In this document: positions 20,179 to 28,411 of the stretch, one piece after another
How the letters are laid out: each line of letters starts with the position of its first letter
Numbering within the stretch: the stretch's first letter is position 1
Virus record (IMG/VR): IMGVR_UViG_3300025141_000561
Location: 1 to 28,411 of that record
Origin: a virus
Reading direction: 5' to 3' (one strand)
DNA length: 28,411 nt
The notes under the pieces: model-generated
The model's input: the letters and a program-made list of their open reading frames with translations, nothing else
Told to the model about the DNA's origin: nothing
Database searches by the model: none
Program-made: the position numbers and the translations under genes

Positions 20179-20405
20179 AGCCCCCCTGAGGGCTTTGATT
20201 GCTTTCAATGGGGGTCCAGGGGCCTGTTACCTAACGCTCCTGGTGCGGGCCACCTGGCCCCCTAAGAGAAAGCAAGTTTTTTGGGTCAAAAAGGCAGATT
20301 TCATGCCGATATTGCTTTCGAAATACGGGGAAAAAGCCGACAATACAAATGAAGGGTTGGGCAAAAAGCCGGAAACCCAGGAATGCTCTTGAAAGGGGTA
20401 TCAAA
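20179..20405 (+). other. Structured noncoding region between loader and ATPase genes
   Basis: Three structures can form. AGCCC/GGGCT (20179-20183 with 20190-20194) is followed by TTT, a weak terminator. A long-range pairing joins 20210-20220 to 20253-20262. A hairpin 20354-20358 with 20374-20378, containing GGC/GCC around AAAAA, lies just before the ribosome-binding site AAAGGGG of the next gene. The middle is AT-rich. The frames here are short and lack ribosome-binding sites, so no gene is called. Confidence 0.4.
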
Positions 20406-21866
20406 ATGAGTCAAGCAACAAAGTGGTTTGATGTCGATAAAGAGGGGCTGTCAAAGCTTCTTGAACGCCAGGGCAAGGCGCATGTCATCTTTGAACTCGT
20501 CCAGAACGCCTGGGACGAAGACAGCAAGAATGTTCGCGTCACGTTGAAGACTGCCGGAGTCCGGGGTCGAAGCATTCTCATCGTTGAGGATGACAACCCC
20601 GAAGGCTTCAAGGACATTCGTCACGCGTACACCCTGTTCGCCGAGTCCGGCAAGAAGAACAATTCCAACAAGCGCGGTCGGTTCAACCTGGGCGAGAAAC
20701 TTGTTCTTGCCCTCTGCACCGAAGCAGAGATCTGCACGGTTGGAAACACTGTCAGGTTCAAGGAGAACGGGGACCGCGAGATCGTTGAGAACGATCGCGA
20801 ATCCGGCTCCATGTTCATGGCGACAGTCAAGATGACAAAGTCCGAGCGGGAGGGATGCATTGAGGAGTTCAACAGCCTCCTCGCCCAGCCCGGAATCGAC
20901 ACCTACATCAACGGTCGGATCTTGGCTCCGAAGGATCCCGTGCGAACAACCAATTCAATTCTTCCGACCATTGCAGCAGACGAAGAAGGAAGGATCTTTG
21001 AGACTGCTCGCAAGACCGACATTCTGATCTACAACGTCGGTCCCGATCAAAAGCCGTATCTCTACGAAATGGGAATCCCCGTCGTTGAGATCGACGGCAA
21101 GTTCAGTGTTGACATCCACCAGAAGGTGCCGATGAACATGAACCGCGACAACGTGAAGCCGGCGTACATGCGGAAGGTGAACACGGTTGTAATGAACGCA
21201 ACCTACGACCTGCTGGACTCCGATGATGTCAACGATTCCTGGGTGAAGGATGCTACAGAACACAAGGACATCGACCAGGGTGCGACGATTGCATTTCTTG
21301 ACATGAAGTTCGGGACCAACCGAGCCAAGTTCGATCCTTCTGATCTTGAAGCCAACAAGATTGCTACCGCTTCTGACATCAGGGTTATCGGAGGTCGCGC
21401 TCTCTCCAAGGCGCAGTGGGAGAACGTGAACACCCATGCTCCCGTTCAGCCGACCGGACAGATCACTCCCTCACCGAAGGCGTGGAGCGGTGCTGCATCC
21501 TGCACCAAGATTCCGACTGAAGAATGGACCGATGGCATGAAGAACATCAGGGCATTCTGTGTAGATTTCGCTGCAAGGATTATGGGGGTGGACGTATCTG
21601 TTCAGTTCTTCAACGAATCGCAAACCAGCACCATTGCCGCTTATGGTGGCAGGGAGTTGACTTTCAACATTGGACGCTTGGGCTACAAGTGGTTCAATGA
21701 GCCGATCCTCTCCGATGTTGTCGATCTCGTAATCCATGAGTTCGGACACGAATACGAGCCGGATCATTTGAGCGACAAATACTACCGTGCATTGACTGGA
21801 CTTTCTGGCAAGAGCACTCAGTTGGCATTGGACGATCCTGATTTCTTTCAACGGTACTTCGGCTGA
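20406..21866 (+). CDS. GHKL (Hsp90/MutL-type) ATPase with C-terminal metzincin-like HExxH motif
   Basis: 486 residues from ATG 20406, chosen because AAAGGGG lies 7 bases upstream. The Bergerat ATP fold shows ELVQNAWD (30-37), DDNPEGF (62-68) in place of the usual DNGxGF, and GRFNLGEK (91-98) as the lid motif. The C-terminal third carries HEFGHEYEPDH (444-454), matching HExxHxxGxxH spacing with Glu for Gly, a zinc-protease pattern. Phage proteins with this Hsp90-like N-terminus are known but poorly studied. The fusion suggests ATP-driven handling plus proteolysis of a target, or a zinc-bound structural domain. Its role here is unknown. Confidence 0.7.
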   Translation: MSQATKWFDVDKEGLSKLLERQGKAHVIFELVQNAWDEDSKNVRVTLKTAGVRGRSILIVEDDNPEGFKDIRHAYTLFAESGKKNNSNKRGRFNLGEKLVLALCTEAEICTVGNTVRFKENGDREIVENDRESGSMFMATVKMTKSEREGCIEEFNSLLAQPGIDTYINGRILAPKDPVRTTNSILPTIAADEEGRIFETARKTDILIYNVGPDQKPYLYEMGIPVVEIDGKFSVDIHQKVPMNMNRDNVKPAYMRKVNTVVMNATYDLLDSDDVNDSWVKDATEHKDIDQGATIAFLDMKFGTNRAKFDPSDLEANKIATASDIRVIGGRALSKAQWENVNTHAPVQPTGQITPSPKAWSGAASCTKIPTEEWTDGMKNIRAFCVDFAARIMGVDVSVQFFNESQTSTIAAYGGRELTFNIGRLGYKWFNEPILSDVVDLVIHEFGHEYEPDHLSDKYYRALTGLSGKSTQLALDDPDFFQRYFG

Positions 21867-23237: not shown

Positions 23238-23560
23238 TGAGTTTTTCAATCAAGTCACACAACGAACGCCACCATGTCATCTGCGGTCTTGCAGAAGTTG
23301 ATCACGGTGTAGAAGAATCCTATGTAGTGGCAGAAGTGTATTCCTCCAGGCCCACGGCAAGGACAATGGCGAACTCCGAAGACCTCCTGGTTGCAGCCAT
23401 TGCCCTGGTCAAGAGCGCACCAAAGACAAGTGATGGCAATGCCTACACGGGATCGGCGCAGATATCCGCGCTGGCTGAACTTGAAACCCAGATCCGATAC
23501 ACACTTGGACCGGATGCCGTCAGGATTCTGGACGGTGAAAATCATGTTTCAGGTTCTTGA
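23237..23560 (+). CDS. Hypothetical phage protein before methyltransferase
   Basis: A 107-residue alpha/beta protein coupled to the preceding gene (TGATG) and overlapping the methyltransferase start by 17 bases. Strands (HHVICGLAEVDHG, YVVAEVYSS) and a long helix (AELETQIRYTLG) suggest a compact fold. It may be expressed with the methyltransferase, but no function can be assigned. Confidence 0.5.
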   Translation: MSFSIKSHNERHHVICGLAEVDHGVEESYVVAEVYSSRPTARTMANSEDLLVAAIALVKSAPKTSDGNAYTGSAQISALAELETQIRYTLGPDAVRILDGENHVSGS

Positions 23561-24680
23561 CCTGTTCTCTGGGATCGGCGGCTTCAGCCTGGGGCTCGAG
23601 GCAACGGGCGGATTCGATACGGTCGCATTCTGTGAGTGCGATAAGAAAGCCAGATTGGTTCTTGACAAGCATTGGCCTGGCGTAAAGCAATATGACGATG
23701 TCAAAGAACTGAATGCGTCGATCCTGGAGCAAGATGACATCAAGCCAGACATTATTTGCGGCGGATTTCCCTGCCAGGATTTGTCCTTAGCGAATAAGAA
23801 CGCATTAGGATTGGATGGAGAACGATCAGGATTATGGAGTGAATATGCAAGACTCATTGGCGAAATACGACCCAGATACGCAATCGTGGAGAACGTCGCA
23901 ACTCTGCTTTTTCGGGGGGTTGGAAGAGTACTTGGAGACTTGGCCGAGATCGGGTACGATGCAGAATGGCATTGCGTGCCAGCTTCAGCCGTTGGCGCTC
24001 CGCACCGAAGGGACAGAATCTGGATCATCGCTTATTGCAACCCCGACAGCGACGGGGAATCAATTAGCACCGAGCATGATGAAAAAGAACCCAGGGTGCA
24101 GGAACATGTTTCCCAGCCCCAGCAGGGCAACGGGGAACAAGGAAGTCATAGGAAGTCAAAGGTGCCGCAACCTGGTTGCATACGCCAAGATGTTTCCGAC
24201 ACCATGCGCGAACTCCAGGCCGAACGAAGGGAACGTCCGTCTGTTGAGGAAAAAGGTGGAGGCTGGGAAGATCAGCAGGGAAGAGGCGACAGCAATGTTG
24301 GGGAAAGACCCGTTCGAACCGCAAGGTGCGATACCCAGGAAACCGGAAGACGAAAACATGATGTTTCCGACCCCAGTGGCGAGCGATTTCAAGGGTGCCC
24401 CGTCCATAAAAGCGGTTCAAAGAAGGGCGAAAGAATCATCAAGAGGAGTAGCTTTGCCAGAGGAGTTGGCGAGACGAGGCGACACTGGGCAGTTGAACCC
24501 AACGTGGGTCGAGTGGCTAATGGGGTTCCCAACAGAGTGGACCGCATTATGCAACTTGGAAACGCAGTAGTGCCGCAGATTCCTTACCTGATCGGGCTGG
24601 CTATACTTGAACGCGAAGGGGTGACGGATGCCGGAACCAATACCAGACGAGATTTTGCAAGCTGGATTCGATGCGATTGA
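23544..24680 (+). CDS. C5-cytosine DNA methyltransferase (Dcm-type)
   Basis: 378 residues from ATG 23544. The cytosine-C5 motifs are present: LDLFSGIGGF (I), GGFPCQDLS with catalytic Cys 77 (IV), ENV 116-118 (VI), PHRRDRIWI (VIII), RVANGVPNRVDR (IX) and QLGNAVVPQ (X). It transfers a methyl group from S-adenosylmethionine to cytosine. The stretch between motifs VIII and IX (about 160-330), where the target-recognition domain should be, is low-complexity, Glu/Arg/Gly-rich and looks disordered. The same DNA encodes another protein in the next frame, which may explain this. A TET-type oxidase lies 2.8 kb downstream, suggesting that its product is modified further. Confidence 0.88.
   Translation: MFQVLDLFSGIGGFSLGLEATGGFDTVAFCECDKKARLVLDKHWPGVKQYDDVKELNASILEQDDIKPDIICGGFPCQDLSLANKNALGLDGERSGLWSEYARLIGEIRPRYAIVENVATLLFRGVGRVLGDLAEIGYDAEWHCVPASAVGAPHRRDRIWIIAYCNPDSDGESISTEHDEKEPRVQEHVSQPQQGNGEQGSHRKSKVPQPGCIRQDVSDTMRELQAERRERPSVEEKGGGWEDQQGRGDSNVGERPVRTARCDTQETGRRKHDVSDPSGERFQGCPVHKSGSKKGERIIKRSSFARGVGETRRHWAVEPNVGRVANGVPNRVDRIMQLGNAVVPQIPYLIGLAILEREGVTDAGTNTRRDFASWIRCD
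23845..24570 (+). CDS. Overprinted methyltransferase-associated protein in another frame
   Basis: ATG 23845 has GGAG at 23836-23839 and a 5-base spacer and opens 241 residues inside the methyltransferase gene, one frame over. It carries motifs I associate with a stand-alone phage/prophage protein family linked to C5 methyltransferases: SLAKYDPDTQSW, ETWPRSGTMQNG, repeated MFPTP-x-A units and NPTWVEWLMGFPTEW near the end. A 241-residue family-like frame under a true gene is unlikely by chance. Whether it is translated is not known; it could instead be the imprint of a shared ancestral sequence. Confidence 0.55.
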   Translation: MQDSLAKYDPDTQSWRTSQLCFFGGLEEYLETWPRSGTMQNGIACQLQPLALRTEGTESGSSLIATPTATGNQLAPSMMKKNPGCRNMFPSPSRATGNKEVIGSQRCRNLVAYAKMFPTPCANSRPNEGNVRLLRKKVEAGKISREEATAMLGKDPFEPQGAIPRKPEDENMMFPTPVASDFKGAPSIKAVQRRAKESSRGVALPEELARRGDTGQLNPTWVEWLMGFPTEWTALCNLETQ

Positions 24681-24792
24681 TGCGTATCGTGAACGAATTG
24701 CCATCTGCGTGATTGATGGCGAGAAGACGGAAGCCCAGGCCCGTCAAATAGCCCTGGCAGACTTCAGAAAGGGTCAACAAGATGGCGTGTGA
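24628..24792 (+). CDS. Small 54-residue helical protein
   Basis: ATG 24628, with GAAGGGG at 24615-24621 and a 6-base spacer, encodes 54 residues (MPEPIPDEILQAGF... ending RKGQQDGV), acidic and almost all helical. It overlaps the end of the methyltransferase gene and the start of the next small gene by 11 bases. No domain is recognised. Good translation signals and spacing make it a likely real gene. Confidence 0.55.
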   Translation: MPEPIPDEILQAGFDAIDAYRERIAICVIDGEKTEAQARQIALADFRKGQQDGV

Positions 24793-24979
24793 AGCTGTAG
24801 AAACCAAAGACGGGAAAGCCATTCTTACCTGCAACACGACGGACATCGCATTCGGGCCGATATTTCGGACCATCCAGGATGCTCGAGATTTCATCAGGAT
24901 CAACCGCGACCCCAGGCTGATGGCAGATGACGAGTTGGCAGAAGCACACCAGTCATATTACTCCGACAAGCCGTTATAG
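24782..24979 (+). CDS. Small 65-residue protein
   Basis: AAAGGG at 24768-24773 is 8 bases before ATG 24782. The protein is compact alpha/beta (KDGKAILTCNTTDIAFG, TIQDARDFIRIN, LAEAHQSYYS). It follows the 54-residue gene with an 11-base overlap and is followed by a terminator, so it ends the methyltransferase transcription unit. Function unknown. Confidence 0.5.
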   Translation: MACEAVETKDGKAILTCNTTDIAFGPIFRTIQDARDFIRINRDPRLMADDELAEAHQSYYSDKPL

Positions 24980-25030
24980 TTGTTCCGTCCCCGGTGGGAA
25001 GTTCAGTACAACTGGGGACACCCCTTTCGC

Positions 25031-25068
25031 AGCGGGATCAGGTTTCGGCCTGGTCCCGTTGTTTTTTT
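25031..25068 (+). terminator. Strong rho-independent terminator after methyltransferase unit
   Basis: A 12-bp stem (25031-25042 with 25049-25060, two G-T pairs) with loop TTTCGG is followed by seven T (25062-25068). Another small hairpin (AGTT-CAGTAC-AACT) lies just upstream. This separates the methyltransferase unit from the nuclease/lysis-candidate unit. Confidence 0.85.
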
Positions 25069-25095
25069 GCACGCACCTGGTCCATCAGATAGCAT
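25067..25095 (+). promoter_or_regulatory. Weak candidate promoter for the DUF1064 unit
   Basis: TTGCAC (25067-25072), a 17-base gap and TAGCAT (25090-25095) form a weak sigma70-like promoter directly after the terminator. The predicted start would be near 25102, the ATG itself, giving a nearly leaderless message. No ribosome-binding site is seen before that ATG. Confidence 0.25.
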
Positions 25096-25101
25096 CTAAT
25101 C

Positions 25102-25500
25102 ATGCCCAGGCGAATACCCCAACGTCACCCAAGAATCAAAATACCCAAGCGCAACAAGTTCAATGCGAATCCCACGATTTATCGGGGATGGCGGTTCGAC
25201 TCCAAGATGGAAGCGGAATACGCCAAGGACCTGGACAAGCTCCTGGGCTCGAGAATCGTCCTTTGGTGGCTTCGCCAGGTGCCAATCGACTTGACGGAGG
25301 ATGACCGCTACAGGGTCGATTTCCTGGTTTGCTACGCCGATGGCGAATTGGTGGCGGTAGAGGTCAAGGGGATGGAAACCGAAGCATTCCGAAGGGTCAG
25401 GAGGCTCTGGTTAAAGTACGGCCCAATGCCATTGAAAGTGGTAAAGAAGAATCGTACAACAGAGACATTATGGGATGGCGAAACCACATCAATGGAATGA
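25102..25500 (+). CDS. DUF1064 family nuclease-like protein
   Basis: 132 residues with the DUF1064 pattern: a basic start, KFNANPTIYRGWRFDSKMEA, then RVDFLVCYADGEL and AVEVKGMETEAFRRVRRL. These give the E, D and E-x-K residues of a PD-(D/E)xK nuclease fold. The family is widely found in phages near replication and DNA-processing genes and may cut branched DNA. An in-frame stop at 25090 forces a start near 25102; there is no obvious ribosome-binding site. It overlaps the next gene by 26 bases. Confidence 0.75.
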   Translation: MPRRIPQRHPRIKIPKRNKFNANPTIYRGWRFDSKMEAEYAKDLDKLLGSRIVLWWLRQVPIDLTEDDRYRVDFLVCYADGELVAVEVKGMETEAFRRVRRLWLKYGPMPLKVVKKNRTTETLWDGETTSME

Positions 25501-25783
25501 CCCTGGAATGGTTACGAACACATCGGAGTTGATATCACTGCTCGCCAGCTGCGTAGCCTCCACTGGTACATCAGCCGTAGGCCTGGCGGGAGTCATGAAC
25601 ACTGGGGGGAATACGGTGTTGTCAGAAGACACCCTTGTGCCGTTTGGCTTGTTTTTGGCAGGTTTGGCATTTACGTCAACCCTGATTTGGAAAGTTGCGA
25701 GCCATAAGGCAGCGACAGAAATGAAGTTAAAAGAGCTTGAGAAGAAGGTGGAACGGTTGGAGAGATCAGATAAGGAGAAGTGA
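25475..25783 (+). CDS. Small membrane protein with coiled coil (holin candidate)
   Basis: 102 residues from ATG 25475; ATG 25508 is an alternative, removing 11 residues. A possible first hydrophobic stretch (LISLLASCVASTGTSAVGLA) precedes a clear membrane segment (LVPFGLFLAGLAFTSTLIW), then a charged coiled coil (KLKELEKKVERLERSDKEK). Small proteins with two membrane stretches and a charged tail are typical holins, but no endolysin gene is seen nearby. It heads a run of membrane proteins. Confidence 0.5.
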   Translation: MAKPHQWNDPGMVTNTSELISLLASCVASTGTSAVGLAGVMNTGGNTVLSEDTLVPFGLFLAGLAFTSTLIWKVASHKAATEMKLKELEKKVERLERSDKEK

Positions 25784-25888
25784 ATGAACAGTCCTGGAAG
25801 ACTTGAGAGGATCGCAGCCGTTCTAGAAATAGCGGCTGTTTCTGGTTTGTTGATTGCGGTTATATTGTATTTGGTCACCAAACTATGA
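25784..25888 (+). CDS. 34-residue single-span membrane peptide
   Basis: AAGGAG is 6 bases before ATG 25784. The peptide has a charged N-terminus (MNSPGRLER) and a hydrophobic span (AAVLEIAAVSGLLIAVILYL), ending VTKL. The next gene starts inside its stop (ATGA), so the two are coupled. It may be a small holin or antiholin subunit. Excellent signals support a real gene. Confidence 0.55.
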   Translation: MNSPGRLERIAAVLEIAAVSGLLIAVILYLVTKL

Positions 25889-26475
25889 AAAACGTCATTT
25901 GCATTCTGTTCCTGGCCTCTCTTCTTTTCGGGTGTTCTTCAGCCAAAAAGGCCATAGGTAACTCTGCCCAGGTCATAAACGCCAGGTCATCAGACAGCTT
26001 GCAATATGCCACCGACATCCAGGCCGCTGCTCAATCGACGTTGGAGCTGGAATCCATCCAGAACGACCAGGTAGCCCAGGATGCCCAGGGCTTGATAATC
26101 AGCCTGGCGGGGAATATCCAGTCTGACCAGGCGTATATCCAGGCTTCGACCATCAGCATCCAGGACAACCTGCACCGGGTAGAAGACCTGACCCCCTGGT
26201 GGGCTTCAATGCTGGGAAACCTGGCGATAGCAGCCATCGTGATCGGGGTCATCATCCTGCTCTGGCAAACGGGCCTGGGGATGCTCATCAAGAAGGTGCT
26301 GTGGTCTATTGGCCTGTTCATCCCCAAGGCAACCATGAGGTCTGCCCAGGCGGACATGAAGGTGTTAGACCGGGGCCATGAGATGGCATTCCGAGAGGCA
26401 ATCGCTGTTCGTCGTTCTTCAGATCCAGCCTACGAGGCTGCACGCAACAAACTCAAACGGAAGGAAACGCAATGA
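25885..26475 (+). CDS. Phage lipoprotein with internal membrane segment
   Basis: 196 residues. An N-terminal lipoprotein signal (ILFLASLLFGC, lipid Cys 17) is followed by a helical Gln/Ala-rich region (about 30-100), a second membrane span (NLAIAAIVIGVIILLW, about 110-127) and a charged tail. The outer-membrane or periplasmic lipid anchor plus a span would suit a spanin-like lysis protein or a superinfection-exclusion protein, but it matches neither closely. It lies in the membrane-protein cluster and is dense in CCWGG. Confidence 0.55.
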   Translation: MKNVICILFLASLLFGCSSAKKAIGNSAQVINARSSDSLQYATDIQAAAQSTLELESIQNDQVAQDAQGLIISLAGNIQSDQAYIQASTISIQDNLHRVEDLTPWWASMLGNLAIAAIVIGVIILLWQTGLGMLIKKVLWSIGLFIPKATMRSAQADMKVLDRGHEMAFREAIAVRRSSDPAYEAARNKLKRKETQ

Positions 26476-26615
26476 ATTGGATTCTTTGGCTCGTAATCGG
26501 CTTTTTGGCAGGCATTTGCATGAGTGAACTTGGATGGGTCAAATGGCTCACCTGCCTGGTGCGAAAAGACTGCAAGGACGGTTGCCGTAATGCCGATAAA
26601 GGCACTGGGAAGTGA
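26472..26615 (+). CDS. 47-residue membrane protein
   Basis: ATG 26472 overlaps the lipoprotein stop (ATGA). A hydrophobic first segment (NWILWLVIGFLAGICM) precedes a short cytosolic tail with C-x3-C (DCKDGCRN). It is probably a one-span inner-membrane peptide, perhaps part of a lysis or envelope-interaction set. No family is known to me. Confidence 0.5.
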   Translation: MNWILWLVIGFLAGICMSELGWVKWLTCLVRKDCKDGCRNADKGTGK

Positions 26616-26888
26616 GTGGCAGCAAAAAGGATCATCCATGATGGTGTCGACCTGCCTGGGCCTTCCCGTTCGTTGATAACGGGAATGGCTCGAGCAGCGT
26701 ATTTGGCGATGGCATCGGGGATGTTTCTGAAGTTCAGTTCTGAATACACTGATTGGGAAGACCTGAAACCGCAGTACAAGGAGATTTGGGAGCAGGTTGC
26801 AAGGTCTGTGTATGCTGTAGTCGCAATCGAGGGTGGCGCAAAGGTGGAGGATATACCTAATGCCAAAGACAAAGACAAACCCAGCTGA
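26616..26888 (+). CDS. Small conserved-type phage protein
   Basis: 90 residues from GTG 26616, with GGGAAG 4 bases upstream. The core (ARAAYLAMASGMF, DWEDLKPQYKEIWEQVARSV) matches a pattern of short phage proteins with an invariant W-E-D and helical pair; their function is unknown to me. It directly follows the membrane peptides and overlaps the ParB-like gene by 29 bases. Confidence 0.5.
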   Translation: MAAKRIIHDGVDLPGPSRSLITGMARAAYLAMASGMFLKFSSEYTDWEDLKPQYKEIWEQVARSVYAVVAIEGGAKVEDIPNAKDKDKPS

Positions 26889-27525
26889 AATGCACATCGA
26901 GTCCCTGAGCATCCAGGACCTGGAACATGACGCCAGGAACGCCAGGGAACACGGCCATCACAACATTGAGGCCATCAAAGAGTCCTTGAGGCGATGGGGA
27001 CAACAGAAACCAATCGTCATTGACGAAGATAACGTGGTTATTGCGGGTAACGGCACCCTGGCTGCTGCAAGGGAAATGGGCTGGAGCCAGATTCAAGTCG
27101 TCAGGACCGATTTGAACGAAGCCGAGAAGCTTGGATACGCCATTGCTGACAACCGAACGGCTGAATTGGCCGATTGGGATGAGGTCCAGCTTGCTGCAAC
27201 ACTCCAGGACATCGCCCAGGAAGACATAGAATCCACGGGCTTCAGCATCAATGACCTCAATAAACTGGTTAACAGCATCAGCAAGACCCTCGAGTTGAAC
27301 ATGCCGCATGACGAGCAAACCCAGGGCCTGGTCAGTCAACCAGGCGGCCAGGGCATGCAAGCACCCCCATCACACGTCCGCATGGTCCAGTTGTTTTTCG
27401 ACGTTGACACGATTGAGCAGTACCTGGATGCGATAAAAGATGCTTCTGAGGCCCTGGGGACTGATAATCCGACCGACACCGTCCTGGGTTCATTAAAAAG
27501 GGTTGCAGGGCATGAAAACGATTGA
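26860..27525 (+). CDS. ParB-like (ParB/sulfiredoxin-fold) protein without HTH
   Basis: 221 residues from ATG 26860, with GGTGGAGG at 26842-26849 upstream. The N-terminal ParB domain is clear: ARNAREHGHHNIEAI, QQKPIVIDEDNVVIAGNGTLA (around 62-66 GNG), LGYAIADNRTAELADW. The C-terminal part is helical and lacks a typical helix-turn-helix, and no methyltransferase is fused. It overlaps the TET/JBP gene by 14 bases, so it is probably part of the DNA-modification locus. ParB/Srx-fold proteins include nucleotide-using enzymes, but a chemistry for this one is inference. Confidence 0.75.
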   Translation: MPKTKTNPAEMHIESLSIQDLEHDARNAREHGHHNIEAIKESLRRWGQQKPIVIDEDNVVIAGNGTLAAAREMGWSQIQVVRTDLNEAEKLGYAIADNRTAELADWDEVQLAATLQDIAQEDIESTGFSINDLNKLVNSISKTLELNMPHDEQTQGLVSQPGGQGMQAPPSHVRMVQLFFDVDTIEQYLDAIKDASEALGTDNPTDTVLGSLKRVAGHEND

Positions 27526-28411
27526 AGCAAAGAGGCACATGACAGACGAGGAGTGTGCCGAATATGCGGGCAAACTGCTGAATGACGGTGCGTACGACCT
27601 GGTGGTGAGGGAAGACACCCTGGTCCTCGACGAAAACGGCGATTTGCTGGTTAGATACATTCCAGGAGCGATTCCAGCCCGGTTGATCCGCCAGGGCTAC
27701 CAGGCGTTGAATGATGCCGCTGGAATGACTGATAATCGCGGTATCGCAGCTGGTATCAATGAAGACATGAGTGCCAAGACGGGTAAAAAGGTCGCTAAGT
27801 GGAAGGCGGTCAAGAAAGACGGCACTCTGAGCAACACTAACCGGGCTGAGAGCGTTATGTCGGGCATCGTCGGTTATTTCGACCGTTCCCCCAGGATGCC
27901 TTATTGCCGGCAGACCAGTTACACAGTCAAGCACCAGGAGAAATACCAGGCAGCGATTCCCATGATTGAGCACATCTCAGGCTTATTCCAGGAGCATGTG
28001 CCGGATCTGCACTCCAACCAGGCCCAGGTCACCCAGGACACAAGCAAGGATTTCGTGATCGGAGATTCGGTCTTCACGACGGTCACCGTCAATGCCAACT
28101 GGCAAACAGCTGTCCACAAGGACGTAGGAGACTACAAACAGGGCTGTGGGGTAATGACGGCCATGGAAGCTGGGAAATACGAAGGCGGATACACCTGTTT
28201 CCCCGAATATCGCCTGGCGGTGGACATGCGGACCCAAGGGGTCCTGTTCGCCAACGTCCACAGGTGGCACGGGAACACCCCTTTAGTGGGCCATCCAGGA
28301 CAATATCGTCGCCTGGCCCTGGTGTTGTATTACCGAGAGAAGATGCGTCACTGCGGAACAGCTGCTGAGGAGGTTGATCGAGCCAAAAACCGCTCTCACA
28401 ACAACCCGATG
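27512..28411 (+). CDS. TET/JBP-family 2-oxoglutarate/Fe(II) dioxygenase (3' end cut off)
   Basis: 300 residues of an open frame run to the right edge without a stop. The core fits the TET/JBP dioxygenase fold: TVTVNANWQTAVHKDVGDY with metal ligands His 202 and Asp 204, then GKYEGGYTCFPEYRLAVD, VHRWHGNT with the third ligand His 253, and QYRRLALVLYYRE with a probable 2-oxoglutarate Arg (266/267). The family oxidises 5-methyl groups of pyrimidines in DNA. With the C5-methyltransferase in the same region, 5-methylcytosine is the likely substrate. The N-terminal 170 residues are typical of phage members. Downstream tailoring genes may lie beyond the window. Confidence 0.85.
   Translation, partial: MKTIEAKRHMTDEECAEYAGKLLNDGAYDLVVREDTLVLDENGDLLVRYIPGAIPARLIRQGYQALNDAAGMTDNRGIAAGINEDMSAKTGKKVAKWKAVKKDGTLSNTNRAESVMSGIVGYFDRSPRMPYCRQTSYTVKHQEKYQAAIPMIEHISGLFQEHVPDLHSNQAQVTQDTSKDFVIGDSVFTTVTVNANWQTAVHKDVGDYKQGCGVMTAMEAGKYEGGYTCFPEYRLAVDMRTQGVLFANVHRWHGNTPLVGHPGQYRRLALVLYYREKMRHCGTAAEEVDRAKNRSHNNPM

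Follow-up and report, generated by a model that had tools for sequence, protein, structure and literature searches.

Can the part of a DNA methyltransferase that chooses its target be encoded inside the gene for its catalytic part, in another reading frame, and does a phage that carries such an enzyme use the methylated base as the substrate of a TET/JBP dioxygenase encoded nearby? Both questions are raised by the IMG/VR virus record IMGVR_UViG_3300025141_000561. The window analysed here is the whole record, 28,411 bases long, and its right end is the contig end. A first-pass annotation had described in it a C5 cytosine methyltransferase (C5-MTase), a ParB-like gene and a TET/JBP dioxygenase belonging to a locus whose end lies beyond the window. 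All three genes are real, as judged from profile matches and, for the dioxygenase, also from a fold search, and the dioxygenase gene indeed runs into the contig end of this complete record. Phage sets of C5-MTase, TET and glycosyltransferase have already been published (Burke et al. 2021, as cited in PMC12730594).

The locus

On the plus strand, the C5-MTase gene (23544–24680) lies 2.83 kb before the start of the TET gene at 27512. The interval contains a Holliday-junction-resolvase-like/DUF1064 gene (25102–25500, plus strand; phrog_190, E = 1.1e-22; PF06356, E = 5.6e-10), which is context and stands outside the modification pathway. No megablast relative of the window was found in the phage collection. 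Before the methyltransferase, a 505-aa protein (20349–21866) combines an N-terminal HATPase/sacsin-like domain (PF13589, E = 2.1e-6; NF047352, E = 1.3e-8) with a C-terminal HEFGH metallopeptidase-like motif, which is an unusual combination, and it has no sequence relative in the PDB.

A nested reading frame in the methyltransferase gene

The larger ORF, called alpha here (378 aa), matches PF00145 (E = 1.7e-40) and phrog_363 (E = 4.6e-73) in profile searches, and its phmmer match to M.HhaI covers residues 4–166. It holds motifs I–VIII, including GFPCQ at residue 74, ENV at residue 116 and RDRIW, as well as motif X (GNAVVPQ); the PF00145 match together with the catalytic PCQ and ENV marks it as a C5 cytosine methyltransferase. 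An ordinary single-chain C5-MTase, however, would have motif IX and the target-recognition region in the same chain, which is not the case here. Motif IX is absent from the translation of 23544–24680 and is found in the +1 frame at 24493–24531 (plus strand), where the bases read LNPTWVEWLMGFP, while their alpha reading is NVGRVANGVPN. The first-pass annotation was therefore correct on PCQ, ENV and motif X, but it assigned motif IX to the same protein and treated the enzyme as one ordinary chain, whereas the gene is a nested arrangement of two ORFs, of which the 251-codon ORF 23815–24570 had been overlooked.

This second ORF, called beta, lies on the plus strand in the +1 frame, entirely inside alpha, and encodes 251 aa when counted from the ATG at 23815; an internal ATG at 23845 is preceded by GGAG at 23836. 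It matches phrog_1008, named ‘DNA methyltransferase’ (profile search, E = 1.2e-29), and contains a specificity region with FPTP/ATPT repeats in addition to motif IX. The beta profile also aligns with residues 191–354, in the C-terminal half, of the one-chain MTase of Mycobacterium phage WillSterrel (probability 97.9%, E = 4e-13), in which TPT repeats, LNPAFPEWMMGWP and GNGVVPQ are all found within one frame. Beta is thus predicted to be the part of a C5-MTase that comprises the target-recognition region and motif IX. Against PDB sequences the beta profile gave short unconvincing matches only; beta by itself is modelled poorly by AlphaFold (pLDDT 63, pTM 0.34), and Foldseek returned no fold match for it, perhaps because beta folds together with alpha.

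By tblastn, the beta ORF matches annotated phages whose gene calls include one of the frames or both. In phage records L002 to L006 the public annotation of the MTase region is inconsistent, since either frame may be listed alone, or the two as distinct ‘DNA methylase’ genes.

Selection on the two frames

A long ORF inside another gene may be an untranslated by-product of the codon usage of that gene. GC-rich genes do show long alternative frames, and conserved alpha motifs could be mirrored in part of the beta N-terminus, so the relatives of the window have to decide. A scan of viral contigs for beta gave at least 594 confirmed stretches, and the architecture was read in the best 80 of these, in two phage records and in the window. 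All 83 have the second frame shifted by +1 from that of the MTase. It should be noted that this set was chosen by beta and that WVEWLMGF was a search pattern, and consequently the first selection test on it was biased around motif IX. Because the set had been chosen by the second frame, the test was redone on an independent set of 80 loci fetched with the first 169 MTase residues only.

In 77 of these 80 alpha-selected loci, more than 90% of the interval between motifs VI and X is open in the +1 frame, and ORF length has a median of 244 codons in +1 and of 38 in +2. In 70 loci the +1 frame contains MG[FWY]P, a sequence resembling motif IX, which occurs in none of the 80 in either the +2 or the alpha frame. 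The alpha synonymous codons lying under motif IX of beta are almost fixed, namely GCT at 96% against a background of 16%, GTG at 96% against 19% and GGG at 93% against 16%, and in the same set this fixation falls to background right after the beta stop. For the window itself, resampling of the alpha codons predicts about five stops in the +1 frame and none is seen, a zero that is partly built in, since the interval was taken from stop to stop.

The substitutions in nine close pairs point in the same direction. In the alpha-only part, 66% of the changes fall at alpha position 3, whereas in the specificity region 51% fall at alpha position 1, which is beta position 3. Amino-acid identity over the specificity region is 76% in the beta frame, 57% in the alpha frame and 58% in the third frame; two of the pairs (L010/L277 and L255/L258) show little contrast, and the pooled figure therefore rests on the other seven. 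The higher identity of beta and the shifted excess of third-position changes indicate that, in this region, beta is constrained and alpha is close to passive. Taken together, the openness of the frame with its third-frame control, the substitution pattern and the fixed synonymous codons reject the by-product explanation, which we consider highly improbable, and they indicate that beta is under protein-level selection and that both frames are conserved.

Spread and variant forms

The nested design was found in every group of relatives examined, and probably hundreds of phages carry it. Other architectures are present as well. One of the 80 alpha-selected loci (L331) encodes a classical one-chain enzyme, and yet another form is seen in the phages Lilbooboo and ArV1, whose two frames overlap only in part and whose motif X lies in the second one. 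For 80 loci from bacterial and archaeal genomes, which include five copies from one Roseovarius chromosome, 72 are nested, five partly overlapping and three single-frame. The five beta-like matches of that Roseovarius MAG chromosome (L221, L222, L224, L225 and L226) are of equal length and far apart, as if they belonged to several related elements. A plasmid search for a nearer bacterial counterpart gave seven distant records only. Within the clade of the window the specificity region is highly divergent between members, yet both frames are open. No report of a nested design across phages was found in the literature searched, the coverage of which was partial.

We lean slightly towards the view that a large family of phage C5-MTases has, as its standard architecture, a specificity subunit that is nested and dual-coded. 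The target-recognition region of this subunit would be overprinted in +1 together with motif IX, the catalytic frame being there a near-passive filler that is kept open to reach motif X, and in the phage studied here beta would decide which cytosines can be decorated by the unit of ParB, TET and glycosyltransferase (GT).

A proposed enzyme of two polypeptides

The small chain of the C5-MTase M.EcoHK31I comes from a different reading frame within the gene for the large chain. This enzyme (YGGCCR) is a natural two-polypeptide C5-MTase, whose large chain carries motifs I–VIII and X, motif IX being left to the small chain (PMC3404938). Compared by that published description, and here from the genes alone, the window is alike in having motifs I–VIII and X in the large chain and motif IX in a second ORF. 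The predicted target-recognition domain of M.EcoHK31I is, however, in its large chain (PMC3404938), whereas selection and the one-chain relative place that of the window in beta; moreover, no restriction-enzyme gene was recognised alongside the window MTase, unlike M.EcoHK31I. In the split C5-MTase M.AquI, motif X is together with motif IX in the small chain (PMC3404938). The motifs of the window are likewise divided over two polypeptides, but motif X stays in the large one; it is Lilbooboo and ArV1 that look like the M.AquI form.

Based on these comparisons, alpha, in frame 0, would provide the catalytic core with motifs I–VIII and X, and the nested beta, in frame +1, would provide the target-recognition region and motif IX. 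The two chains may form a complex and jointly make 5-methylcytosine (5mC) at a short site that beta sets.

Could the two frames instead be joined by the ribosome? A frameshift would carry translation from the N-terminal part of alpha into the +1 frame and give a single chain with motifs I–VIII, the specificity region and motif IX, and no separate beta subunit. A one-chain relative (L005) is known, three in-frame forms occur among the bacterial loci, and the start codon of beta is not kept at one position among the relatives, all of which would suit a frameshift. Such a fusion, however, would be without motif X, which remains in alpha in nearly all relatives; usable start codons are available upstream of the conserved part of beta in 108 of 109 loci; and M.EcoHK31I is a precedent for two polypeptides (PMC3404938). 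We therefore regard the frameshift as improbable and retain alpha and beta as two chains. We also considered that beta starts at a fixed codon behind a conserved Shine-Dalgarno sequence made from alpha codons, which is unsupported among the relatives.

The dioxygenase and its ParB-like partner

The TET/JBP gene (27512–28411, plus strand; PF12851, E = 5.4e-23) is cut by the contig end, and relatives end about 8 aa beyond the cut. The core that the first-pass annotation had recognised by its His-x-Asp, HGN and Arg is borne out, since H202-x-D204, WHGN (H253) and R267 are invariant in 32 relatives. The AlphaFold model (pLDDT 92.4) has TET2 (Z 21.7), NgTet1 (Z 19.5), CMD1 (Z 19.5) and CcTet as its best fold matches, well apart from the AlkB-type rows, and the best non-TET row scores 14.2. 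A structural search had been named as a check on this gene, and it places the protein inside TET/JBP.

The ParB-like N-domain protein (26860–27525, plus strand) overlaps the TET start by 14 nt, as had been noticed before. Its ParB_N match (22.3 bits) is below the Pfam cut-off of 26.3, and the assignment is carried by phrog_620 (E = 1.3e-41). A gene on the same strand abuts TET upstream in 74 of the 77 loci with enough sequence, mostly overlapping it, and ParB was recognised by tblastn at 76 of 82 TET loci. It is thus ParB, and not the C5-MTase, that this TET family has as its constant partner. Of 36 long TET contigs, two carry a C5-MTase gene (PF00145), and these two belong to the clade of the window; most of the contigs are fragments and near relatives are numerous among them, so that the 34 absences do not count as 34 independent events. 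A PF00145 gene is also absent from six of the seven TET-bearing phage records that were searched whole, and from both counts it follows that TET enzymes of this family often do without a C5-MTase encoded by the phage. A similar neighbour is known for CmoX, a cytosine C5-carboxymethyltransferase and thus another phage C5-modifying enzyme, which often has a ParB-domain gene nearby (PMC12783734); CmoX has an SPPC motif and the window enzyme GFPCQ, the general annotation of the window showed no CmoA gene, and the ParB-domain neighbour is common to both.

Substrate and final modification

What follows TET can be seen in the contig L092, which is 97.9% identical to the window over the final 140 nt of the latter. 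Past TET, this contig encodes a protein of 272 aa that weakly matches the TET-associated glycosyltransferase (TAGT) and alpha-glucosyltransferase families, so that the extension to the right proposed by the first-pass annotation in search of a glycosyltransferase has met a TAGT-like gene directly after TET. Against TAGT (PF20691), post-TET genes of the neighbours, which lie beyond the window, score 21.6 and 17.9 bits, where the cut-off is 27.5, and the gene has a DDD motif in common with the TAGT of P12024L. L090, L093 and L094 have a gene at the same place, and the order MTase ... ParB-TET-GT is retained in two relatives, L093 and L094. In L007, L137, L154, L168, L170 and L171, TET is followed by a gene for an FkbM-type methyltransferase and not for a glycosyltransferase, which hints at a different final modification.

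In the proposed pathway, TET/JBP would oxidise 5mC to 5hmC with the ParB-like protein as its probable DNA-binding helper, and the TAGT-like enzyme would glycosylate the 5hmC, which may hide the phage DNA from host nucleases. With the enzymes present in the lineage, this phage could plausibly convert C to 5mC, then to 5hmC and then to glycosyl-5hmC, and 5mC is the likely substrate of its TET. The enzyme classes and the presumed product type are those of the pathways of Burke et al. 2021; the description of these in PMC12730594, as far as it was available, mentions neither a nested MTase nor a constant coupling with ParB. Of the first-pass proposal that 5mC is made, oxidised and perhaps decorated, the route itself has gained, as all its enzymes are found in the lineage, their order is kept in L093 and L094 and the TET fold is firm; the simple pair of MTase and TET has given way to a unit in which ParB is constant.

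The same genes could also be read with the C5-MTase as an independent anti-restriction gene that happens to be near, and with ParB-TET-GT acting on thymine (giving 5hmU and then a base-J-like sugar) or on 5mC made by the host. JBP members of the TET/JBP fold use thymine. The constancy of ParB-TET and the frequent lack of a C5-MTase described above agree with such a substrate, as does P12024L, which has a TAGT gene and no C5-MTase. On the other hand, the MTase and ParB-TET-GT co-occur in a fixed order in the clade of the window, and the top structural matches are 5mC oxidases, though the fold does not fix the substrate. The Melnitz phage (L009, 3303–5487), in which the C5-MTase gene overlaps the TET gene, is an independent pairing of the two and also argues for phage-made 5mC. 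Of 30 TET records, 28 gave no match to a thymidylate-synthase-type gene, and the other two gave one clear match (Cr30) and one weak match. On balance we think this second reading rather unlikely, and hold the full module, in which a two-polypeptide MTase is followed by TET with a ParB-like partner and then by a TAGT-like enzyme, to be fairly probable.

Implications

Reading the locus as a hypermodification pathway is reasonable, and pathways of this type have already been published. The conservation of a nested specificity subunit was less to be expected and is the stronger result. For the TET enzymes, the ParB-TET pair is a conserved unit that is usually without a recognisable C5-MTase, and therefore a phage TET should not be presumed to act on phage-made 5mC. 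If the two-polypeptide reading is true, the annotation of many C5-MTase genes in phages, and of some in bacteria, would lack half of the enzyme or name beta vaguely, and protein produced from the annotated ORF alone would be inactive or without specificity. If the nested design is standard, swaps of specificity must preserve two open frames. The family would then offer a large and testable case of conserved overlapping genes, both products of which act in one enzyme.
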